Assembly: GCA_014896315.1 (NCBI GenBank)
Contig: JADBKP010000007.1
Location: 62,001 to 126,000, forward strand
Origin: Limnochordales bacterium
GTDB taxonomy: Bacteria; Bacillota; Limnochordia; Limnochordales; DUMU01
Reading direction: 5' to 3'
DNA: 64,000 bases
Position numbers and translations under genes: made by a program. Under the pieces are notes generated by a model. The model made no database searches and was not told the origin of the DNA. It was given only the letters and a program-made list of their open reading frames with translations. The number at the start of each line of letters is the position of its first letter. Position 1 is the stretch's first letter. Below are positions 4,009-63,074 of this stretch, piece after piece.

Positions 4009-4038
4009 GGCAGGAGAGGAGTCCTGCCCTCTCCTGCC
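4009..4038. terminator. Hairpin terminator between convergent genes
   Basis: Perfect 11-bp inverted repeat GGCAGGAGAGG / CCTCTCCTGCC (4009-4019 and 4028-4038) with an 8-nt loop, starting 9 nt after the regulator stop codon and lying 34 nt beyond the stop of the convergent SBP gene. There is no T-run, so if it terminates it does so as a strong stem alone or with Rho; it may serve both strands. Confidence 0.6.
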
Positions 4039-4072: not shown

Positions 4073-5335
4073 CTATTTGCTCGAAGCGCTTATCAAAGCA
4101 TTTATTCGCGTCCGTATCGCTGCGAGTGCACTTTCTGGCGTTTCTCTCAATTCGAATGCCGATGCTAGCCCATCAGCAACTACAATCTGCATATCCCATG
4201 CACGTGGCACCTGCGGAAAGTACACTACATACGGCAGCATGCGAGCAAACTGAACTTGATGCTTTAGTGCGCGAAACTCAGGGCTGGCAACCACCTTTAG
4301 GCTGGGTGACACATGCCCAGCCATTTGACACCAAGTGTAACTGTTCTGCGTCATCCATTTGACAAACGTCTTGGCAGCCTCCAGACGTTCTTTACTAACT
4401 CGCGCCGGTTTGGGAAGTACAAGAAGATGCGAGTCTGTCCACGCGGCCGGCTTCGTGCCAAACACTGGTAGTGGTGCCGCCTCGAAATCTACGCCCGACT
4501 TGACGAACCCGCCACTCGTCCACGTTCCATCTATGAACATTGCCAGGCTAGACTCTGCAAATAGGCGATCGGCAGCCGGGTCCAATATGAGCGTGCCTGT
4601 CTTAACCGAGTCAACCAGGATGTTCAAGGCCTTAACTTGGGCCGTATCTGTGCTCATCTTGTACTCATCAGCTGCAAAAAAGGCACCACCTAACTGTTTA
4701 AGAACTGAATACCAAAGTCTGTAGTAAGTAAACGAGTCACGGCGGATGCCAAAGCCATATTGATCTACCTTGCCATCGCCGTTTGTGTCGCGGATTAACT
4801 TCCTCGAGTACTGGAAGACTTGCTCGCCAGTCTCAGGGGCTTTCGGGCTGAGGCCAGCATAGTCAAAGAGCGTTGGATTGAAGTATAGGCCAATCGGATG
4901 GATATCGAAAGGCAGTGCGTACAATTTCCCCTTGTACTTAGACGCTTCCCAAGGAATTGGGAAGTAGTCATCAGACCGTATGCCAGCAGCCTCTAACTCG
5001 GCCGGTGTCAGTTCCAACAGCGAGCCAGCCTCGGCAAACTCAGCGATCCGGGTCGCGTGCATCATCGCCACATCTGGTGGGGTGCCACCTACTACTGCTA
5101 CCAACAACTTCGAGTAATAAGCATCTCCCCACGGCACTTCCTGCATGCTAACCTGTATGTCCGGATGGAGTTTCTCAAACGCTTCCTTCATAACAGTAAG
5201 GGCATCCCGCTCAAGTCCAGCACCCAGGAAATGCCAGAGAGTGATGGTCACCTTAGCCTCTGCAAGCCCAGGTACGAGAGCCATCAAGACTCCTACGCAC
5301 AGAACTATCGCTATCATTCTGCTTAATTTGCACAT
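4073..5335 (-). CDS. Sugar ABC transporter substrate-binding protein (family 1), orphan
   Basis: Extracellular family-1 solute-binding protein for an ABC sugar importer, 420 residues. A Sec signal peptide occupies about residues 1-27 (hydrophobic core IAIVLCVGVLMALVPG, AEA before the cut), followed by the usual TITLWHF strand, a DVAMMH ligand loop and a FIDGTWTSGG motif. The ATG at 5335 is preceded by GGGGAGGG. It is the last gene of a three-gene minus-strand operon, 44 nt after the glutaminase-A-like gene. No permease or ATPase gene lies anywhere near, so it must serve a transporter encoded elsewhere. G+C content is visibly lower than that of the flanks (31 of 60 in one line I counted). The sugar is unknown. 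Confidence 0.92.
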   Translation of the reverse strand: MCKLSRMIAIVLCVGVLMALVPGLAEAKVTITLWHFLGAGLERDALTVMKEAFEKLHPDIQVSMQEVPWGDAYYSKLLVAVVGGTPPDVAMMHATRIAEFAEAGSLLELTPAELEAAGIRSDDYFPIPWEASKYKGKLYALPFDIHPIGLYFNPTLFDYAGLSPKAPETGEQVFQYSRKLIRDTNGDGKVDQYGFGIRRDSFTYYRLWYSVLKQLGGAFFAADEYKMSTDTAQVKALNILVDSVKTGTLILDPAADRLFAESSLAMFIDGTWTSGGFVKSGVDFEAAPLPVFGTKPAAWTDSHLLVLPKPARVSKERLEAAKTFVKWMTQNSYTWCQMAGHVSPSLKVVASPEFRALKHQVQFARMLPYVVYFPQVPRAWDMQIVVADGLASAFELRETPESALAAIRTRINALISASSK

Positions 5336-19313: not shown

Positions 19314-19412
19314 ATTTGTGATGCTTTGAATACTATGCAGCTCATTAAGATGACCCGAGCATCCTCCAAGAGGTCATGCCTCCCGGTGAACGACAACAAG
19401 GAGGTAATCAAC

Positions 19413-20711
19413 ATGAAGAAGTGGCTAATTTGTCTTCTTATCGTAATCCTCAACATATGTGCCGTTATGCAGCCCCTCACCATCACGCCAGTGAGTGCGG
19501 CGAAGAAGACAGTAGATTTCTGGGTCATTTGGGGAGATGCTCCTGCGTTTGTGGAATACCATGCGTTCAAACGGCTCGTAGATGAATTCAATAAGCAAAG
19601 TAGCGCAGTGCAGGTTAATCTAGTCGTCGGTCCTGGTGACTACTCCTATTTTGATAAACTTATCGTCGCCACTGCAGCTGGTAATCCTCCTGACCTATTT
19701 GTGGATGGAATTGATGTCCACCAAGAGTTACTGTCCGTGCTTGTACCCGTTGATGAAACGAATTTGGCAAAGCATCTCGACATGAAGAACTATGTGCCTT
19801 TCATTCAGGAGAACGCAGTCTATGACGGTCACTGGTATACAATTCCATGGTCCCTTGGCACTCAGTTCTTACTCTACAATCCCAAGGTTTTTGAAGAACT
19901 GGGACTTCCGGGCTCGGCAGTTCCGCAGACCTGGGCTGATCTTGACAGAATCGGTATGAAAATCGCTGGAGTTAACAAGTCTAGCCGTCCAGATCTCTAT
20001 GCCCTGGTGGTCCAGTTTGATGCTTGGGGGTTCGAGCCCTGGATATGGCAAGCAGGAGGGCGTCTGTACGATCCTGCCAAACGACAGGTTACAATCAACA
20101 CCCCGCAGGTGTTGAAGGCCTTGCGTTTCCTCTCTGAAGGGGTGAATGCTAAAGGTTACATCGCACCTCCTGGCAACGACACAGGTTGGCTCATAAAGAG
20201 CGGTAACCTGGCCATGTGGCAAGCGCTACCGCAGCACTACAACATCTGGCGGCAGATCACCGGCGAGTATCCGGGAGTCACACTGTTACCGAAAGATGCC
20301 GAGAGCGGCACCACGGTTGGAGGTTGGCATCTGTACATGACCAACACGCCCGATCGCGACGCAACGGTCGAGTTCCTTACCTGGCTTACTGATCCGGAAC
20401 GTCACGCCCGGTATTTGATTGAGAGCGGTACTGTGACCCCCCGTTTGGACCTGGCTCAAAAGAGCGCAACATTCAAGGATTTCCTTGCCCAGCATGTAGA
20501 GGCCCGAGTTGCAGTTCAGCAGGTTATGTTCGGGCGGATGCTCCACCCGGCCGTCCGACGTACGCCAGTAGGTCCGGAAGTCGAACGGCTGCTTGAGGAG
20601 GCATTCATGACCGTCATCCGGAATCAGGAAGCTCCCGAAAGGGCACTGCAAAAGGCCGATGAGGCAGCCAATGCCCGGCTGAAGCAGTGGCTGGAACGGA
20701 AACTAAAGTAA
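19413..20711 (+). CDS. Sugar ABC transporter substrate-binding protein (family 1), orphan
   Basis: Exported family-1 solute-binding protein of about 432 residues. The ATG at 19413 follows AAGGAGGTAATCAAC and begins a clean signal peptide (KKWLICLLIVILNICAVM, cut after VSA). DFWVIWGDAPAFVEY, a DLFVDGID ligand loop, GTQFLLYNPKVFEELGL and MTNTPDRDATVEFL are typical. A longer frame from 19326 lacks a ribosome binding site. No permease gene is adjacent; the gene is closed by a strong hairpin at 20741-20775. Position after the rhamnose genes suggests rhamnose or a rhamnoside as ligand, which is inference only. Confidence 0.92.
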   Translation: MKKWLICLLIVILNICAVMQPLTITPVSAAKKTVDFWVIWGDAPAFVEYHAFKRLVDEFNKQSSAVQVNLVVGPGDYSYFDKLIVATAAGNPPDLFVDGIDVHQELLSVLVPVDETNLAKHLDMKNYVPFIQENAVYDGHWYTIPWSLGTQFLLYNPKVFEELGLPGSAVPQTWADLDRIGMKIAGVNKSSRPDLYALVVQFDAWGFEPWIWQAGGRLYDPAKRQVTINTPQVLKALRFLSEGVNAKGYIAPPGNDTGWLIKSGNLAMWQALPQHYNIWRQITGEYPGVTLLPKDAESGTTVGGWHLYMTNTPDRDATVEFLTWLTDPERHARYLIESGTVTPRLDLAQKSATFKDFLAQHVEARVAVQQVMFGRMLHPAVRRTPVGPEVERLLEEAFMTVIRNQEAPERALQKADEAANARLKQWLERKLK

Positions 20712-20740: not shown

Positions 20741-20775
20741 CAGGAGGCCCGGGTCTTTCACTCCCGGGCCTCCTG
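20741..20775. terminator. Strong hairpin between convergent SBP and GH127 genes
   Basis: Perfect 13-bp inverted repeat CAGGAGGCCCGGG / CCCGGGCCTCCTG (20741-20753 and 20763-20775) with a 9-nt loop TCTTTCACT, 29 nt after the SBP stop and 24 nt beyond the GH127 stop. No T-run follows on either strand. Likely a two-way terminator or 3'-end stabiliser. Confidence 0.75.
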
Positions 20776-49136: not shown

Positions 49137-49168
49137 GGGGCGGGCGCCTTGCAGCATACGCCCGCCCC
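49137..49168 (-). terminator. Intrinsic terminator of SBP gene
   Basis: Perfect 10-bp stem CGCCCGCCCC-type repeat (49137-49146 with 49159-49168) and 12-nt loop, 35 nt after the SBP stop on the minus strand, followed by TTTACTTTGCATT. This is the most classical rho-independent terminator in the window. Confidence 0.8.
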
Positions 49169-49202: not shown

Positions 49203-50567
49203 TTACCGTCCCTTCCTGGCACGTTCAGCCCAGTACTTGTCGAGCTGGTTCTGGACGTTGTTGGCAATATTGTTGATGGCGGTGGTCGGGCTAACGGAGG
49301 CCGTCGTCACGCCATACAGGCCGTTGATAATGGCGTCCGTCAGCTGCCGGATGATGGGTAGGGCAGGGAGTGGCTTGTCGGTCTCCATCGCCCGCAGGAT
49401 CTTGTCCCAGTTGGGATTCAGCTTGCGGTACTCAGGATTCTCGTTGAACTTCCGCACCGGCGAAGGCCGTCCCTGCAGGAAGGAGAAGATGCCCGTACCT
49501 TCCGTAGTCAGGAACTTGACCCAGAGCCAGGCCGCCTCCTCTTTCTCTTTCGGGAGCCCTTTAGGGATCACATATCCCCAGCCGAAGCCGCGGGCTGCCA
49601 CACCCGTTGACTTAGCCCTGGGGTTCCTGTCGTTGTACGGGATCAACCCGATACCCCAATCAAACATCGTGCCTTTCTTCATCTCATCGATGATGAGGTT
49701 CATCATGCTGATGTTCTCGAAGAGCACGACTTCCTTGCCGTTCATAAAGGCCATACCAGTCCTGGGGTTGTTTCGGCTCAGGAATTCGGTCTGCTTCGCC
49801 CCGCCGTTGATCTTGGCGGCGTAATCATACATGAATTGCAACGTCTCCTGGGACTCCTTGCTATCTATTGCCTGGCGTCGCAGGTCACTGGTGACGATAT
49901 CACCGTCGTTGCTGAACAGAAAGTCCAGATACATATGGGGTGACATGCGGCTGAAAAGCTGGGTGATTCGCCCATCCGGCGCAAAGCGAGTCAGTTTCTG
50001 TCCGGCCGCCATGAAGCTGGACCAGGTCTCGGGCGGACGCTCCGGGTTCAGCCCCGCCTGTTCAAACAATTCCTTGTTGTAGAAGTAGAAATCATCGTTA
50101 GCAGTGACCGTGGGCAGCGGCAGCGTCCAGAGCTCCCCTTCGTACCGGAAAGCGTTAACCTCTGCGGGGTAGAAAATGCTCAGATCAAGCTTGTCACGCT
50201 TGACGTATTCGGTGATCGGAATGATTGCCCCCATATCGGCCAGGGCCAGGACCTCGGCCCGCGGCGCCATCATGACCTCCGGGGCAATACCGGCAGCGAA
50301 AGCGGAGATGATCTTGGCACTCAGGTTGTCCCAGCCCTGGATCTTGCTCTCCACATTGATCCAGGGATACTGCTTTTCGAAGGCATCGATCACCGCCTTC
50401 ATGTAAGCCTCGCGGTCACCGTCCCACCAGTTCCAGAAAGTGATGGTCACCGGCTTGCGCGTGCTCTCCGCCCCGCGGGCCGGCCACGCTGCCGCCACTC
50501 CCAGTACAAGAATTAGTGCCAACCCGACGAATACCGACGCTATACGGCGAACAGGAAGACCCTGCAT
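49203..50567 (-). CDS. Sugar ABC transporter substrate-binding protein (family 1), orphan
   Basis: Exported family-1 solute-binding protein of 454 residues. Signal peptide at residues 1-32 (VFVGLALILVLGVAAAW, cut after ARGA). TITFWNWWDGDREAYMK, VMMAPRAEVLALADMG, DDFYFYNKELFEQAGL and AWLWVKFLTTEG follow. A strong AGGAGGATGAGGAG stands before the ATG. It follows a heparinase II/III gene on the same strand and ends at a classical terminator. No permease or ATPase gene adjoins it. A uronic-acid oligosaccharide is a reasonable guess for the ligand. Confidence 0.93.
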   Translation of the reverse strand: MQGLPVRRIASVFVGLALILVLGVAAAWPARGAESTRKPVTITFWNWWDGDREAYMKAVIDAFEKQYPWINVESKIQGWDNLSAKIISAFAAGIAPEVMMAPRAEVLALADMGAIIPITEYVKRDKLDLSIFYPAEVNAFRYEGELWTLPLPTVTANDDFYFYNKELFEQAGLNPERPPETWSSFMAAGQKLTRFAPDGRITQLFSRMSPHMYLDFLFSNDGDIVTSDLRRQAIDSKESQETLQFMYDYAAKINGGAKQTEFLSRNNPRTGMAFMNGKEVVLFENISMMNLIIDEMKKGTMFDWGIGLIPYNDRNPRAKSTGVAARGFGWGYVIPKGLPKEKEEAAWLWVKFLTTEGTGIFSFLQGRPSPVRKFNENPEYRKLNPNWDKILRAMETDKPLPALPIIRQLTDAIINGLYGVTTASVSPTTAINNIANNVQNQLDKYWAERARKGR

Positions 50568-50722: not shown

Positions 50723-53296
50723 CTACTGAGAACTCCCCCCAGAAACGGCGGAAGCTTCTCCAAGGTCGCCCGCTCTCGTGTAAACCGGGCGGCCGTCGAC
50801 TACAAGCCGGCTTCCTTCCGCCAGCAGCCAGTGCTCTACAATGGGGGGAGCTGCCATGTTTGCTTCGTTTGTTTCGGCAAACTCCAGCGCGGCCAGCTGC
50901 CCTGTAGCTTCGACCGGAATGCCCTGGGTAGTGGCCGCCTTCATCACCGGCGCGTCGGCGGCACGCAGGAGCACCAGAATCCGCCGGGATGGCAGCCAGA
51001 GAGCAAAGCCCCCCTCGGCCGGCAGCAGCTCTGCGGGGCAAGAGCGGGCGCTTGCAGCTGCACCGGCATTGCCCTGGCAGGGACGGCAGACCTGCAACAC
51101 GGTGAGGAAATGCTCGCGGGGCCGGGGAGTCATAGTCGTCACCCGGAGGTGCCACTGGTTCGGCTTGTTGTCCGGTTCATCCAGGACCACCGAGTCGAGC
51201 GGAACAGGAAACTGGTCGGTCAGCTCGAACTTCAGCCCGGCGAAGTCCCGATCCTGTGCGGGAAGCAGGAAGTAGACGTTCAAAACCGCCTTTTCGGCCG
51301 GAACGGTGACGATACGTCTCTCCTCATCCACGTACATCCGCACGTAGCTGTGCAGCAGCCAGGTGAAGGTTGCGCCGCCGGGAGCGACCGACAGTTCATC
51401 ATAGATCACAAAGATATCCGGTCGCAGGAAGAGCACGTGCCGCCAGAACCGGGTCAGGGTAGCCGGCGGACCACCGGCAGGGTCGGCGATCTGTCCGTAA
51501 GCTTGGGTCGCATCGCCGCGGATATAGTCCCAGCGCGGACCGTGGTAGAAAGCGGCGATCTTTCCTTTGGCCGCGAGAGACTGGGCGATCTGCCCCTGGC
51601 CATTGACCAGGATGCTGTTGTGGGCCTGGGTCTGCTTTGTATACTGCATGTGATGCGGGCTGCCGTACCAGGGGCGATACCCCGAGGAAGTAGCAAGCGG
51701 AGAGCCGTACGCTTCCAGGGTAAACGCGTTCTGGTCGGCGAAGGAATGGCTGAAAGAGCCGTACGGGCTGCTCTTCAGCATAAAGTGAACGTTGTTATCC
51801 GGGTTCGCTAGGTCGGTGTGCAGGATCGCCCAACCAATGTCGGGGAAGCACCGAGCAGGAGGAAGCTGCGAAGGAGAGGCGGGCGGAACGCTCTCGCCGG
51901 CCCGGATGTAGCCCATCACCCCCCGCTGCCGGGAGTTGGGGACGTGCTGGGCAAACCAGTCCGCATACCATTGGAAGTAACCGTTGCGATAGATGCGGGC
52001 CAGATGAGCCATGACATGGGCATCCTGCACCTTGGGCGGCATTTCGGCAAAATCACCAAAAGGCCCCATCTTGGAGTAGGGCGGCTGGTTGTACAGCTTG
52101 AAGTATCCGGTATTACGGAAGAAGGGTTTGCGGTAGAGGTCAAGTCCGGTGGCGATGCTGAGCACATCAACAAACCAGAGGGCCCAGTCCATATACGCCC
52201 GCCAGTACGAGTTGCCCTCGGCCCAACCGCCGGGCTCACCCCCCCAGGCCGGGTAGACGGCAAAGAAGATGCGCAACAGATAGTCAAACCAGCGAACGGC
52301 GGTTCTGGATGGGGCAGGCTCTGCTTCGGATTCAGGCTCCCAGAGCAACGCAATCGCCGCCTCACCCAAAAAGCCCAGCGAACGCCCCTGGTGGCTGTCC
52401 CAGGGACGGATGTGATACTCATGCCGGCGCAGGAGCTGGTAATGATCCTCACCCCGGACCAGCAGGCACTGGCGCAAGAGCCGGCGTTCTTCCGGGGTAA
52501 AGAGGTCGTAGCACCAGGTGAAGGTCCGGCTCAACTTGACGAGGATCGGCATGGAGCATTCGTCCATAACTTCGGCACTGGTGGCGGCTTCAGGACCGGT
52601 CGCAGGCCAGCTGGCGATCGTAAGAGCCCAGCGGCGGGCCGCCTCACCGATTTCGCGATTTTCCGAGATCAAATAGGCGAAGGCCAGCTTCTCCAGCTTG
52701 TCTGTCAGGTTGTAGCCCTGGATGTAGGCCTCCCGCCAGATCTTCACGTCCCAGACCCCGCCGGGCCGGCAGTGGGGTGGCTCGGCCGGCAGCGGCTCCT
52801 CCCGGGCCAGACGGAGGGCTTCGTCGTATAACTCCGCCCAGATGGAAGCAGCTAAAGGGCTGGTTCGCTTGGCGCGCAGTTGCGCCAGGCTGTGGGGATG
52901 GTCAGGGGGAACGTCAGGCCGTACGAAAAGGCGAGGGTGCTGGCGCGGGACTCGATTGATCACCTCGGCCAGGGGTGGAAGCGCGAAACTCACCGCGTCG
53001 GGGGCGATGCGAAAGGTCCAGACGGGGACGTTTCCTATTACCCTTCCGGTCCGGTCGAGTCCCTCCACCGACCACTCCCACGTCTGTGCGGGGTCAAGCT
53101 CGATGGGCGGGGTGAAAATGGGGAGATCAGTGGTGAAAGTGTAGCTGTTACCGGCCAGGTGAGTGGCCCGCAGAGTCAGCCTGTAGGACACCGCTTCGCG
53201 AATTGGTTCCCAGACAAAAGAAGGTGGGTTGGTCATTACCACCGTTCCCGCCGCCGGTGAACGGGGCAGGGTCGGCATGGCAGGTACATCACTCAT
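50723..53296 (-). CDS. Heparinase II/III-family protein, cytoplasmic
   Basis: Polysaccharide-lyase-like protein of about 857 residues with an N-terminal domain (DUF4962-like; WEPIREAVSYRLTLRATHL), an (alpha/alpha)-toroid middle part (WDVKIWREAYIQGYNL, GWAEGNSYWRAYMDWALWF) and a C-terminal beta-sheet part with GSFSHSFADQNAF and QTQAHNSILVNGQGQ, the zone that holds the catalytic His/Tyr set in heparinase II. No signal peptide. The open frame reaches 53359 (TTG); the ATG at 53296 follows GAGGAG at a rather long 12 nt, so the exact start is uncertain. Lies between two SBP genes. Confidence 0.85.
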   Translation of the reverse strand: MSDVPAMPTLPRSPAAGTVVMTNPPSFVWEPIREAVSYRLTLRATHLAGNSYTFTTDLPIFTPPIELDPAQTWEWSVEGLDRTGRVIGNVPVWTFRIAPDAVSFALPPLAEVINRVPRQHPRLFVRPDVPPDHPHSLAQLRAKRTSPLAASIWAELYDEALRLAREEPLPAEPPHCRPGGVWDVKIWREAYIQGYNLTDKLEKLAFAYLISENREIGEAARRWALTIASWPATGPEAATSAEVMDECSMPILVKLSRTFTWCYDLFTPEERRLLRQCLLVRGEDHYQLLRRHEYHIRPWDSHQGRSLGFLGEAAIALLWEPESEAEPAPSRTAVRWFDYLLRIFFAVYPAWGGEPGGWAEGNSYWRAYMDWALWFVDVLSIATGLDLYRKPFFRNTGYFKLYNQPPYSKMGPFGDFAEMPPKVQDAHVMAHLARIYRNGYFQWYADWFAQHVPNSRQRGVMGYIRAGESVPPASPSQLPPARCFPDIGWAILHTDLANPDNNVHFMLKSSPYGSFSHSFADQNAFTLEAYGSPLATSSGYRPWYGSPHHMQYTKQTQAHNSILVNGQGQIAQSLAAKGKIAAFYHGPRWDYIRGDATQAYGQIADPAGGPPATLTRFWRHVLFLRPDIFVIYDELSVAPGGATFTWLLHSYVRMYVDEERRIVTVPAEKAVLNVYFLLPAQDRDFAGLKFELTDQFPVPLDSVVLDEPDNKPNQWHLRVTTMTPRPREHFLTVLQVCRPCQGNAGAAASARSCPAELLPAEGGFALWLPSRRILVLLRAADAPVMKAATTQGIPVEATGQLAALEFAETNEANMAAPPIVEHWLLAEGSRLVVDGRPVYTRAGDLGEASAVSGGSSQ

Positions 53297-53407
53297 CGGC
53301 CAAGACAGCTCCTCGCTATGCCTCGGGAATTTCCCTTTCAATTCGCCGGCGGCGGACAATCCCCTGCAGCAATGGTAGAGCTAGACTGGGCTGAGCTGGT
53401 AAGCAAA

Positions 53408-53472
53408 ACTCCGGGGAAAGGACCAAACCAAACCACACCAAACCATACCAAACCAGGTCCTTTCCCCGGAGT
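53408..53472 (-). terminator. 17-bp hairpin with a GG-repeat loop downstream of SBP gene
   Basis: ACTCCGGGGAAAGGACC (53408-53424) and GGTCCTTTCCCCGGAGT (53456-53472) are perfectly complementary, giving a 17-bp stem and a 31-nt loop. On the minus (transcript) strand the loop carries six GG pairs, each separated by exactly three bases. It starts 25 nt after the SBP stop and ends 111 nt before the heparinase start. No T-run follows. It may end or trim the SBP transcript, or set the ratio between the SBP and heparinase genes. Confidence 0.8.
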
Positions 53473-53497
53473 GCTGCAAACCTGTACGTCCGCACTC

Positions 53498-54781
53498 CTA
53501 CTTCCGGCGGGGCTCCTTGTCGAGCAACTTCTGAATCTCGTCGGCCATTTGGGTTGCCACCTGATCCGGAGTCATTTCCGCCCTCCACAGTGCGCGCTCA
53601 TACTTTCCAATAATCGTGGTGAGTTCACTTTGCTGGACTATACTGGGATAGAGGCGACCGTATGCGGCGGTCTGGAAGCGGGCGAGCAACTGCAGCCGGA
53701 AAGGATCGTTCGGCGGTATGGACGCCTGTACCGTCGACTTCAGCACTGGCGTCGTAAGACGGCTCAGGCGGGCATTGATCTCCTGGCCGGGAGGGCCTGA
53801 ATACCATTTGACAAACTCCCAGGCTTCCTGCGGGTGTTTCGTGCCGGCGAAAACCACACCGCCATCGAACAATACCCGTGTTGCCTCCCGGACCTTCTTG
53901 GGCCAGACGCCCACCCCCCAATCAAACTTGAGCTGGCCCTCCATGAACGAGGGGAACTTCCATCCACCATCACCGTACATGGCGATCTGGCCCCGGGCGA
54001 ACATCTCCAGGGCGGAGACCGTCAAGGCGTTAGGAGGCGGCTGCACCCGGAAACGGTGCATCAGATCCTGTGCAAACTTCAACCCCTCAATCGCAGCACT
54101 CTGGTTTATCAATGCCCGGGTGCGGTCGCTGCTGATCACCTCACCACCAGCCTGCCACACCCAGTGCATCCACTCACCCCGGTCGGCGTATCCATAGCGA
54201 TCCGGCCCGGTCAGGCGCATGGCCACCTGGATAAACTGCTCCCAGGTCCAGGACGAATCCGGCCGCTTGATCCCGGCTTGATCGAACATGTCCGCGTTGT
54301 AGTAGAGCAGTATGGCGTTGAAGGCGTTGGGAAGGCCGTATATCCCCCCTTCATACTCGAACCCTTGCAGCAGGATGGGGATATAGTCGTTCTTCCACGA
54401 CTGGAACTGTTTATCTTTGTCCATGTACGGCTTGAGATCGAGCAGCACACCCCTGTTGACCCACATGGGGATGTCCGTATACGAAGACCAGAAAACATCG
54501 GGTGCTTCCCCCGCCGCTATCATGGCCAGAAGCTTGGAGGCATAACCAGATGGAACATTCGTCCAATCAATCTTGATGTTGGGATGGCTTGCTTCGAACG
54601 CTTTGATCTGAGCTTCAGTAATCGGAAGATTTCTGGTATCCGACCAGGTGAGGAACTTCAAGGTTACCGTCGCAGCTGCCGCCGCAGGGTCCACAGCCGG
54701 CCCGCCGCCAAAGCTGACCAAGGTTGCGACGGCAGCAACTGTGGCACAGAGGACCAGTTTGGACCTGGTAAGCTCTCTCAC
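53498..54781 (-). CDS. Sugar ABC transporter substrate-binding protein (family 1), orphan
   Basis: Exported family-1 solute-binding protein of about 427 residues. The frame opens at a GTG at 54805, but the GTG at 54781 is 8 nt after AAGGAAGGGG and is preferred. Signal peptide LVLCATVAAVATLVSFGGG, cut after AAAAA. LKFLTWSDTRNLPITE, DVFWSSYTDIPMWVNRG, FNAILLYYNADMFDQAG and QIAMYGDGGWKFPSF are family features. It lies between a secreted and a cytoplasmic heparinase II/III-family gene, so an unsaturated uronic-acid oligosaccharide is the likely ligand (inference). No membrane components nearby. Confidence 0.93.
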   Translation of the reverse strand: MRELTRSKLVLCATVAAVATLVSFGGGPAVDPAAAAATVTLKFLTWSDTRNLPITEAQIKAFEASHPNIKIDWTNVPSGYASKLLAMIAAGEAPDVFWSSYTDIPMWVNRGVLLDLKPYMDKDKQFQSWKNDYIPILLQGFEYEGGIYGLPNAFNAILLYYNADMFDQAGIKRPDSSWTWEQFIQVAMRLTGPDRYGYADRGEWMHWVWQAGGEVISSDRTRALINQSAAIEGLKFAQDLMHRFRVQPPPNALTVSALEMFARGQIAMYGDGGWKFPSFMEGQLKFDWGVGVWPKKVREATRVLFDGGVVFAGTKHPQEAWEFVKWYSGPPGQEINARLSRLTTPVLKSTVQASIPPNDPFRLQLLARFQTAAYGRLYPSIVQQSELTTIIGKYERALWRAEMTPDQVATQMADEIQKLLDKEPRRK

Positions 54782-54868
54782 AACCGATTCCCCTTCCTTC
54801 TTCACAAATGTGGGCGGACCACTCTCTTACGACTCCCTGCTCAGATCAGATCTTTAAACGTTTGGTCT

Positions 54869-61768: not shown

Positions 61769-62908
61769 TTAATCGCCGGCCCGCATCAGAAGAGACCACT
61801 CACGCAGCCATTTCTCCCGGTTGGCGGCCACTTTCTCCGCAGGCACACGGACCGGCTGGGCCGGCGTAACCGCGTACTTTACGAAGTCGGCGGGAAGTTT
61901 GGCTTTAGAATTGGCCGGAAACATCCAGTTGGTGGTCGGGATCATTCCCTGGACTTCCGGGGAGAGCATGAAATTGATGAAGGCGTGGGCCAGACGGGCC
62001 TGTTCTGGGGTGCGGCCCCGGACTATGCCCATCAGCTCAATCTGTTCGTAGCCCTGCCCGTCCAGAGTGATGATCCGGTAATGGGTGCTGCCGTAGTTGA
62101 TCACCCCGTAGGCCATGTCGGTGGAGTAACTGACCACAATGGGGGCTTCTCCGTTCTCGAACATGGAGTAAGCTTCACTCCAGCCGCCGGCCACCGTGAG
62201 AAGGTTCGGCTTGAGCTTGCGCCAGAAGTCCAGATACCCGTCCTCGCCAAACCTGGCAATGGTCCACAGCAGGAAGGCCATGCCTGGAGACGAGGTGACG
62301 GGGTTGATCGCAATGATCTTCCGCCTCCATTCCGGTTTGAGCAAGTCGTTGAAGGTCTTGGGCGCCTTGTCGGGGGGGATTACCCGCGAGTCGTAAACCA
62401 GGGTGATGAACCCGTGGTCGAGAGGAACAAGCCTCCGACTGGGATCGATCAACAACCGCTCCGGCACATCCGCCAGGTTGGGCAGACGGCTAAAGTCCAG
62501 AGTTTGGAAGACGTTGTGCTGGAGGGCCGCCGGCAAATCGGAGTCGGCCAGACCCACGAAGACATCGGCGCCCGGCCGGCCCGCCTGCAGTTCACCCAGA
62601 AGGCGCGCGAACATCTCGCCAGAGTCGCCCGGCGCTACCCAGACAAGGTCGACATCCTCCTGCGCTTCAAACCGCTTTTCAATCTCCTTCGCCGGCCCCC
62701 AGGAGACAAAGCTGTCGTAGGTGTAGACCACCAGGCGGGGTTTGGCCGCGGCCGCGCCCGGGGCAGGTTTTACTCCCGCCCATACCCACGCAAGTGCGGC
62801 GGCAAGAACAACGAGGGCGAAGAAGTGAGCTATCCGGAGAGCCACCACTCGGGCGGCAGCCCGGCAGCACAGACCCCGGCGGCTCTTGAGGATGGATGAA
62901 ACGGACAT
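61769..62908 (-). CDS. thiB: Thiamine ABC transporter substrate-binding protein
   Basis: Exported binding protein for thiamine, 379 residues. The mature protein begins RLVVYTYDSFVSWGPAKEIE, a close match to the ThiB/TbpA start, followed by DVFVGLADSDL, VPLDHGFITLVYDS, TSSPGMAFLLWTI and PIVVSYSTDMAY. The signal peptide has a long basic n-region. An open frame extends to 63004, but the ATG at 62908, 8 nt after GGGAGG, is right and lies directly behind the riboswitch region. First gene of thiBPQ. Confidence 0.93.
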   Translation of the reverse strand: MSVSSILKSRRGLCCRAAARVVALRIAHFFALVVLAAALAWVWAGVKPAPGAAAAKPRLVVYTYDSFVSWGPAKEIEKRFEAQEDVDLVWVAPGDSGEMFARLLGELQAGRPGADVFVGLADSDLPAALQHNVFQTLDFSRLPNLADVPERLLIDPSRRLVPLDHGFITLVYDSRVIPPDKAPKTFNDLLKPEWRRKIIAINPVTSSPGMAFLLWTIARFGEDGYLDFWRKLKPNLLTVAGGWSEAYSMFENGEAPIVVSYSTDMAYGVINYGSTHYRIITLDGQGYEQIELMGIVRGRTPEQARLAHAFINFMLSPEVQGMIPTTNWMFPANSKAKLPADFVKYAVTPAQPVRVPAEKVAANREKWLREWSLLMRAGD

Positions 62909-62915
62909 AAATAAA

Positions 62916-62941
62916 ACCTCCCTGCCCCGAAGGAAGGAGGT
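62916..62941 (-). promoter_or_regulatory. Possible anti-Shine-Dalgarno hairpin of thiB
   Basis: The thiB ribosome binding site (ACCTCC read on the plus strand, 62916-62921) is perfectly complementary to 62936-62941 (GGAGGT), 14 nt away in the leader. In RNA this pairing hides the ribosome binding site and is a plausible off-state of the TPP riboswitch expression platform. Confidence 0.55.
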
Positions 62942-63074
62942 ACGGAGGCTGCTCCGCTTCCCATACACCTGCCGGAACAGACCGATGAGGCGGCGACCGA
63001 CCACACAGGGTCGGCGACCGGCGGCTTGTGCCCGGCGGCCGATCCGGTCAGATCAGACTGGAAGCGGAACCTAT

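Follow-up and report, generated by a model that had tools for sequence, protein, structure and literature searches.

Background

In E. coli, REP hairpins occupy the intercistronic region between malE and malF, behind a binding-protein gene. In cellulolytic clostridia, stem-loops behind the genes of solute-binding proteins (SBPs) of ABC importers terminate transcription in part; compared with canonical terminators, their GC stems are longer and their U tracts poorer (Wu et al. 2022, PMC9045158). In a reporter, 21-96% of transcripts end at the hairpins that follow SBP genes in R. cellulolyticum, and the folding energy of the clostridial stem-loops has an effect on how stable the SBP transcript is; the mechanism was described for SBP genes with translocator genes behind them (PMC9045158). 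Clostridial operons, those of ABC transporters among them, are known to contain stabilising hairpins (PMC8219983), and the stem-loops of selective RNA processing and stabilisation (SRPS) are likewise stable intergenic 3' structures that could set the ratios of operon genes (PMC8219983, PMC4423207).

Here we describe an intergenic hairpin from an uncultured lineage of Bacillota, to which it extends the observation of strong terminator-like hairpins that often trail the SBP genes of ABC importers. The window, that is, the whole stretch of DNA analysed, comprises 64,000 nucleotides of a Limnochordales bacterium (contig JADBKP010000007.1).

Structure and position of the hairpin

The hairpin and its immediate surroundings consist of the following features, all on the minus strand, which is also the transcript strand:

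53498..54805, minus strand: upstream gene of an ABC solute-binding protein (PF01547, PF13416); ORF list and profile search
53408..53472, minus strand: main hairpin, 17-bp perfect stem and 31-nt loop, terminator- or stabiliser-like; stem search and fold
53398..53482, minus strand: imperfect extended inverted repeat with 27-nt arms, 85% complementary; inverted-repeat search and RNA fold
53401..53408, minus strand: U-rich tract UUUUGCUU, six U of eight, adjoining the GC-rich stem; direct reading
50723..53296, minus strand: heparinase II/III-like gene downstream of the hairpin (PF07940, PF16332), its start probably the ATG at 53296, preceded by GAGGAG; ORF list, profile search and reading

In the direction of transcription, the SBP gene (54805-53498) is followed by the hairpin (53472-53408), which begins 25 nt past the SBP stop codon, and then by the heparinase gene. 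A sequence-only reading of the window had placed a 17-bp perfect stem closing a 31-nt loop between an SBP gene and a heparinase gene; the stem search recovers this very stem, and the profile search finds the expected domains on both sides of it, on the same strand. The arms are ACTCCGGGGAAAGGACC and GGTCCTTTCCCCGGAGT, with 31 nt between them, and in the predicted RNA fold four additional base pairs form beyond one mismatch outside the 17-bp stem. The minimum free energy of the 81-nt RNA is -40.8 kcal/mol (z -5.6), and none of 200 shuffled sequences folds equally well. No other perfect stem of more than 13 bp, with loops of up to 80 nt allowed, is found in 464 kb sampled from the same genome, where the 17-bp stem is the longest, and the longest perfect stem in 20 shuffled versions of the window does not exceed 14 bp; the hairpin is therefore not a product of chance.

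The first U of UUUUGCUU belongs to the outermost stem pair, the tract is partly paired in the fold, and only four U in the tail are contiguous. The simple terminator scan permits loops of only 3-8 nt, so the whole hairpin is invisible to it. The Rfam search of the hairpin returned sub-threshold matches only, mostly to microRNA families, none of them near the gathering score. Reading of the sequence also disposed of two candidate elements, an integron attC site (no core sites) and TRAP-type binding sites (no GAG or UAG repeats). The hairpin is ordinary in kind; what is extreme is its stem, and what is odd is its loop.

Among the described systems, the clostridial SBP terminators (PMC9045158) are similar in that they, too, lie between an SBP gene and the next gene on the same strand, and combine a long GC-rich stem with a short or broken U tract. 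Within that set, our hairpin is closest to Type III, with a single mismatched base in its lower stem, whose 3' side is U-rich. It differs from them in its 31-nt tandem-repeat loop, in its folding energy (-40.8 kcal/mol for 81 nt, beyond their range of -38.3 to -10.1), and in that a gene for a heparinase-like enzyme comes next; termination at this locus would be by analogy with theirs. The genes of the ABC ATPase and the likely permease lie upstream of the hairpin, with no cognate translocator genes downstream of it. Since the next gene is heparinase-like and the ATPase and likely permease are upstream, we file the hairpin as a terminator/stabiliser and not as a proven device for setting the SBP-to-translocator ratio. 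As to the malE-malF hairpins, the likeness is the position behind a binding-protein gene, from which the hairpin would work in favour of the gene upstream; the difference is that REP is a repeated element, whereas the hairpin here is single-copy in its genome.

Hairpins behind SBP genes as a class

All five SBP genes identified in the window by profile search have a perfect stem of 9-17 bp shortly downstream. Moreover, the window contains just three perfect stems of at least 11 bp (53408-53472, 20741-20775 and 4009-4038), and all three lie 25-34 nt past SBP stop codons. The sister hairpins are:

20741..20775, plus strand: 13-bp stem, 29 nt past the SBP gene 19326-20711; stem search
4009..4038, minus strand: 11-bp stem, 34 nt past the SBP gene 4073-5335; stem search
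49137..49168, minus strand: 10-bp all-GC stem with tail TTTACTTTGC, 34 nt past the SBP gene 49203-50567; stem comparison

We compared perfect stems within 150 nt past the stop codon, with frames classed by SBP profile. In the same genome, a stem of at least 9 bp follows 19 of 29 sampled SBP genes, compared to 33 of 277 other frames of at least 200 aa, which were called automatically (Fisher p 6e-10); the SBP genes were collected for their similarity to the SBP encoded at 53498..54805, without regard to hairpins, though paralogous loci are not fully independent of one another. Shuffled SBP downstream regions contain such a stem in 1.4% of cases. The same search gave 13 of 22 SBP genes in a genome of the same genus and 4 of 16 in a genome of the same family.

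In the 8 nt past the stems of this and the same-genus genome (38 stems of at least 8 bp), the mean fraction of T is 0.37 against a background of 0.195, and none of 5000 resamplings reached as high. Tails behind the stems of other genes are T-rich as well (33%), as expected of terminators. Downstream genes at other SBP loci of the genome, judged by reading their translations by eye, are varied, and include enzymes, other SBPs, regulators and convergent genes; for many of these loci, therefore, the hairpin would simply be the end of the transcript. The hairpin at 53408-53472 has the marks of this group: a stem-loop soon after the stop codon, a U-rich tract that is partly paired in the fold, and recurrence behind SBP genes.

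Three further observations were made. Another SBP gene of the same genome is followed, 68 nt past its stop, by a perfect stem of 16 bp that closes a 5-nt loop (L120 1689-1725); in the post-SBP set only one stem is longer. At least 42 regions of the same genome (G000, 2.6 Mb) are similar to the SBP that precedes our hairpin, several of them adjoining carbohydrate-active-enzyme-like genes. At L064 6592-6641, repeated AAACCCCTGGAGA units carry overlapping inverted repeats.

Conservation and copy number

In the closest genome (G001, contig DUMU01000048, same genus), the SBP ortholog is 80% identical, and the next gene is a second SBP; this junction contains neither the hairpin nor the heparinase gene. 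The relatives of the heparinase gene are located elsewhere, at 48% in the same genome and at 47% in the same-genus genome. We conclude from this junction and from the scattered relatives that the heparinase gene and the hairpin are a local feature of this species.

A junction that lacks both the hairpin and the heparinase gene in the sister genome, together with an inverted repeat that is long and nearly perfect, its 27-nt arms being imperfect, is what one would see if a mobile palindromic element or its remnant (REP- or MITE-like) had landed between the two genes. Such elements come in several copies, whereas the search for a second copy of the hairpin in its own genome found none; a search of 72 further genomes of the class gave only partial matches of 20-25 nt, in three genomes (E 0.02-0.04), and plasmids gave only five short weak ones. 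Unrelated stems of similar design, moreover, stand behind many SBP genes. A mobile origin is, in our estimate, highly improbable.

Proposed function

We propose that the structure is probably the 3'-end hairpin of the SBP message, acting as a partial terminator and 3' stabiliser, so that SBP exceeds heparinase, and that its loop is a tolerated repeat. By analogy with clostridial SBP operons (PMC9045158, PMC8219983), the 17-bp GC-rich stem would form behind RNA polymerase as it leaves the SBP gene; together with the U-rich UUUUGCUU it would terminate some of the transcripts, and it would also shield the SBP mRNA from 3'-to-5' exonucleases, while the 31-nt tandem repeat in the loop would be merely tolerated. 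Partial termination and protection would then result in SBP being made in excess of the heparinase gene product. No match to a sigma-70-like promoter was found on the minus strand between the hairpin and the heparinase gene. Several points speak against this reading: the loop of 31 nt is far longer than in textbook terminators, the contiguous U are only four, an enzyme gene and not a translocator gene comes next, and the one orthologous SBP of the genus does without a hairpin.

Alternatively, the hairpin might do no more than stabilise or mark a 3' end made by processing, in the manner of SRPS and without termination. Such a role would agree with the very stable stem (-40.8 kcal/mol) and with the precedents in clostridial operons (PMC8219983); the enrichment of T past the stems, on the other hand, speaks for termination across the class. 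Stabilisation alone appears unlikely to us, and the two roles are not exclusive.

The loop and the G-quadruplex question

On the minus strand, the loop of the hairpin is TGGTTTGGTATGGTTTGGTGTGGTTTGGTTT. It contains six GG pairs, every one separated from the next by three bases, exactly as the sequence-only reading had it; a seventh GG nearby sits in the stem arm and is paired. The pattern coincides with a simple repeat:

53422..53455, minus strand: period-5 tandem repeat that makes the GG-N3 loop, (ACCAA on the plus strand)6.8, 86% match; Tandem Repeats Finder and direct reading

Since the loop is a period-5 tandem repeat, the regular spacing reflects one repeat expansion and not six coincidences. 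In the same genome, at least 13 matches to the six-GG-N3 motif, some of them overlapping, are among those listed; since the motif reads the same when reversed, the reversed-pattern control carries no information on this number. The GG-N3 matches include a long G run on the minus strand at G000:C1:259231-259257.

It had been suggested, on the strength of this spacing, that a two-tetrad RNA G-quadruplex forms in the loop above the stem, and that this quadruplex could stop exonucleases, polymerase or ribosomes. Six evenly spaced GG do provide four G tracts with short loops, if only in a two-layer pattern, and the loop fits the loose two-quartet class (G2+N1-9)x3 G2+, to which about 90% of the sites found by rG4-seq in E. 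coli and P. aeruginosa belong (PMC6974567). Read as DNA, GGTTTGGTGTGGTTTGG corresponds to the thrombin-binding aptamer (TBA) with one T added to each TT loop (TTT), the aptamer being d(G2T2G2TGTG2T2G2) (PMC13204723). The likeness to the bacterial two-quartet sites ends with the loose sequence pattern: the reported sites are all in coding regions (PMC6974567), whereas the hairpin here is intergenic. When quadruplexes were allowed in ViennaRNA, as the sequence-only reading had advised, the ordinary hairpin was kept, with the same open loop and the same -40.8 kcal/mol; neither the isolated loop nor the TBA-like core forms a quadruplex in this model, whereas GGG and GG-N1 controls do fold. Quadruplex stability, besides, generally falls with longer loops (PMC5664352).

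Comparison with other hairpins is no more favourable. Among 43 post-SBP hairpins of three genomes, the one at 53408-53472 is the only one with a GG-N3 loop (0 of the 42 others). No relative keeps the GG spacing, a result that the sequence-only reading had named in advance as refuting the quadruplex; the single same-genus genome, the one relative available for this comparison, has no hairpin at its orthologous junction. With the spacing explained by a single tandem repeat, a quadruplex that acts as proposed is very unlikely; the roles that had been assigned to it, blocking of exonucleases and termination, do fit the placement of the hairpin, the class of SBP hairpins and their T-rich tails, but these give no support to a quadruplex as the agent.

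A weak or transient two-tetrad quadruplex in the loop is physically possible. It is extremely doubtful that such a structure, presented by the hairpin in RNA or as a TBA-like chair in extruded DNA, modulates how the SBP message ends or decays in response to potassium or temperature, and the idea would matter only if the activity were potassium-dependent. The GG repeat looks like a short, tolerated tandem repeat. Loops of the post-SBP hairpins span 3 to 52 nt with no apparent common sequence; many SBP hairpins of this genome share position and tail, not the loop. A striking loop pattern, it appears, can be a mere simple tandem repeat.

Other features of the gene cluster

Frames were called by a simple longest-ORF rule, which missed a binding-protein-like frame at 61769-63004, upstream of the hairpin, that a longer frame overlaps on the opposite strand. 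This frame, which reads like the ThiB/iron type, almost abuts the next gene, leaving no space for a hairpin. It directly precedes a 579-aa permease-like frame and the ABC ATPase, and the gene cluster therefore contains two different binding proteins.

The heparinase gene has its ribosome-binding site and start codon inside an inverted repeat with arms at 53248-53261 and 53342-53355 (14 nt, 93% complementary, 80 nt apart). This repeat could mask the heparinase start, or could be a chance occurrence in GC-rich coding sequence.
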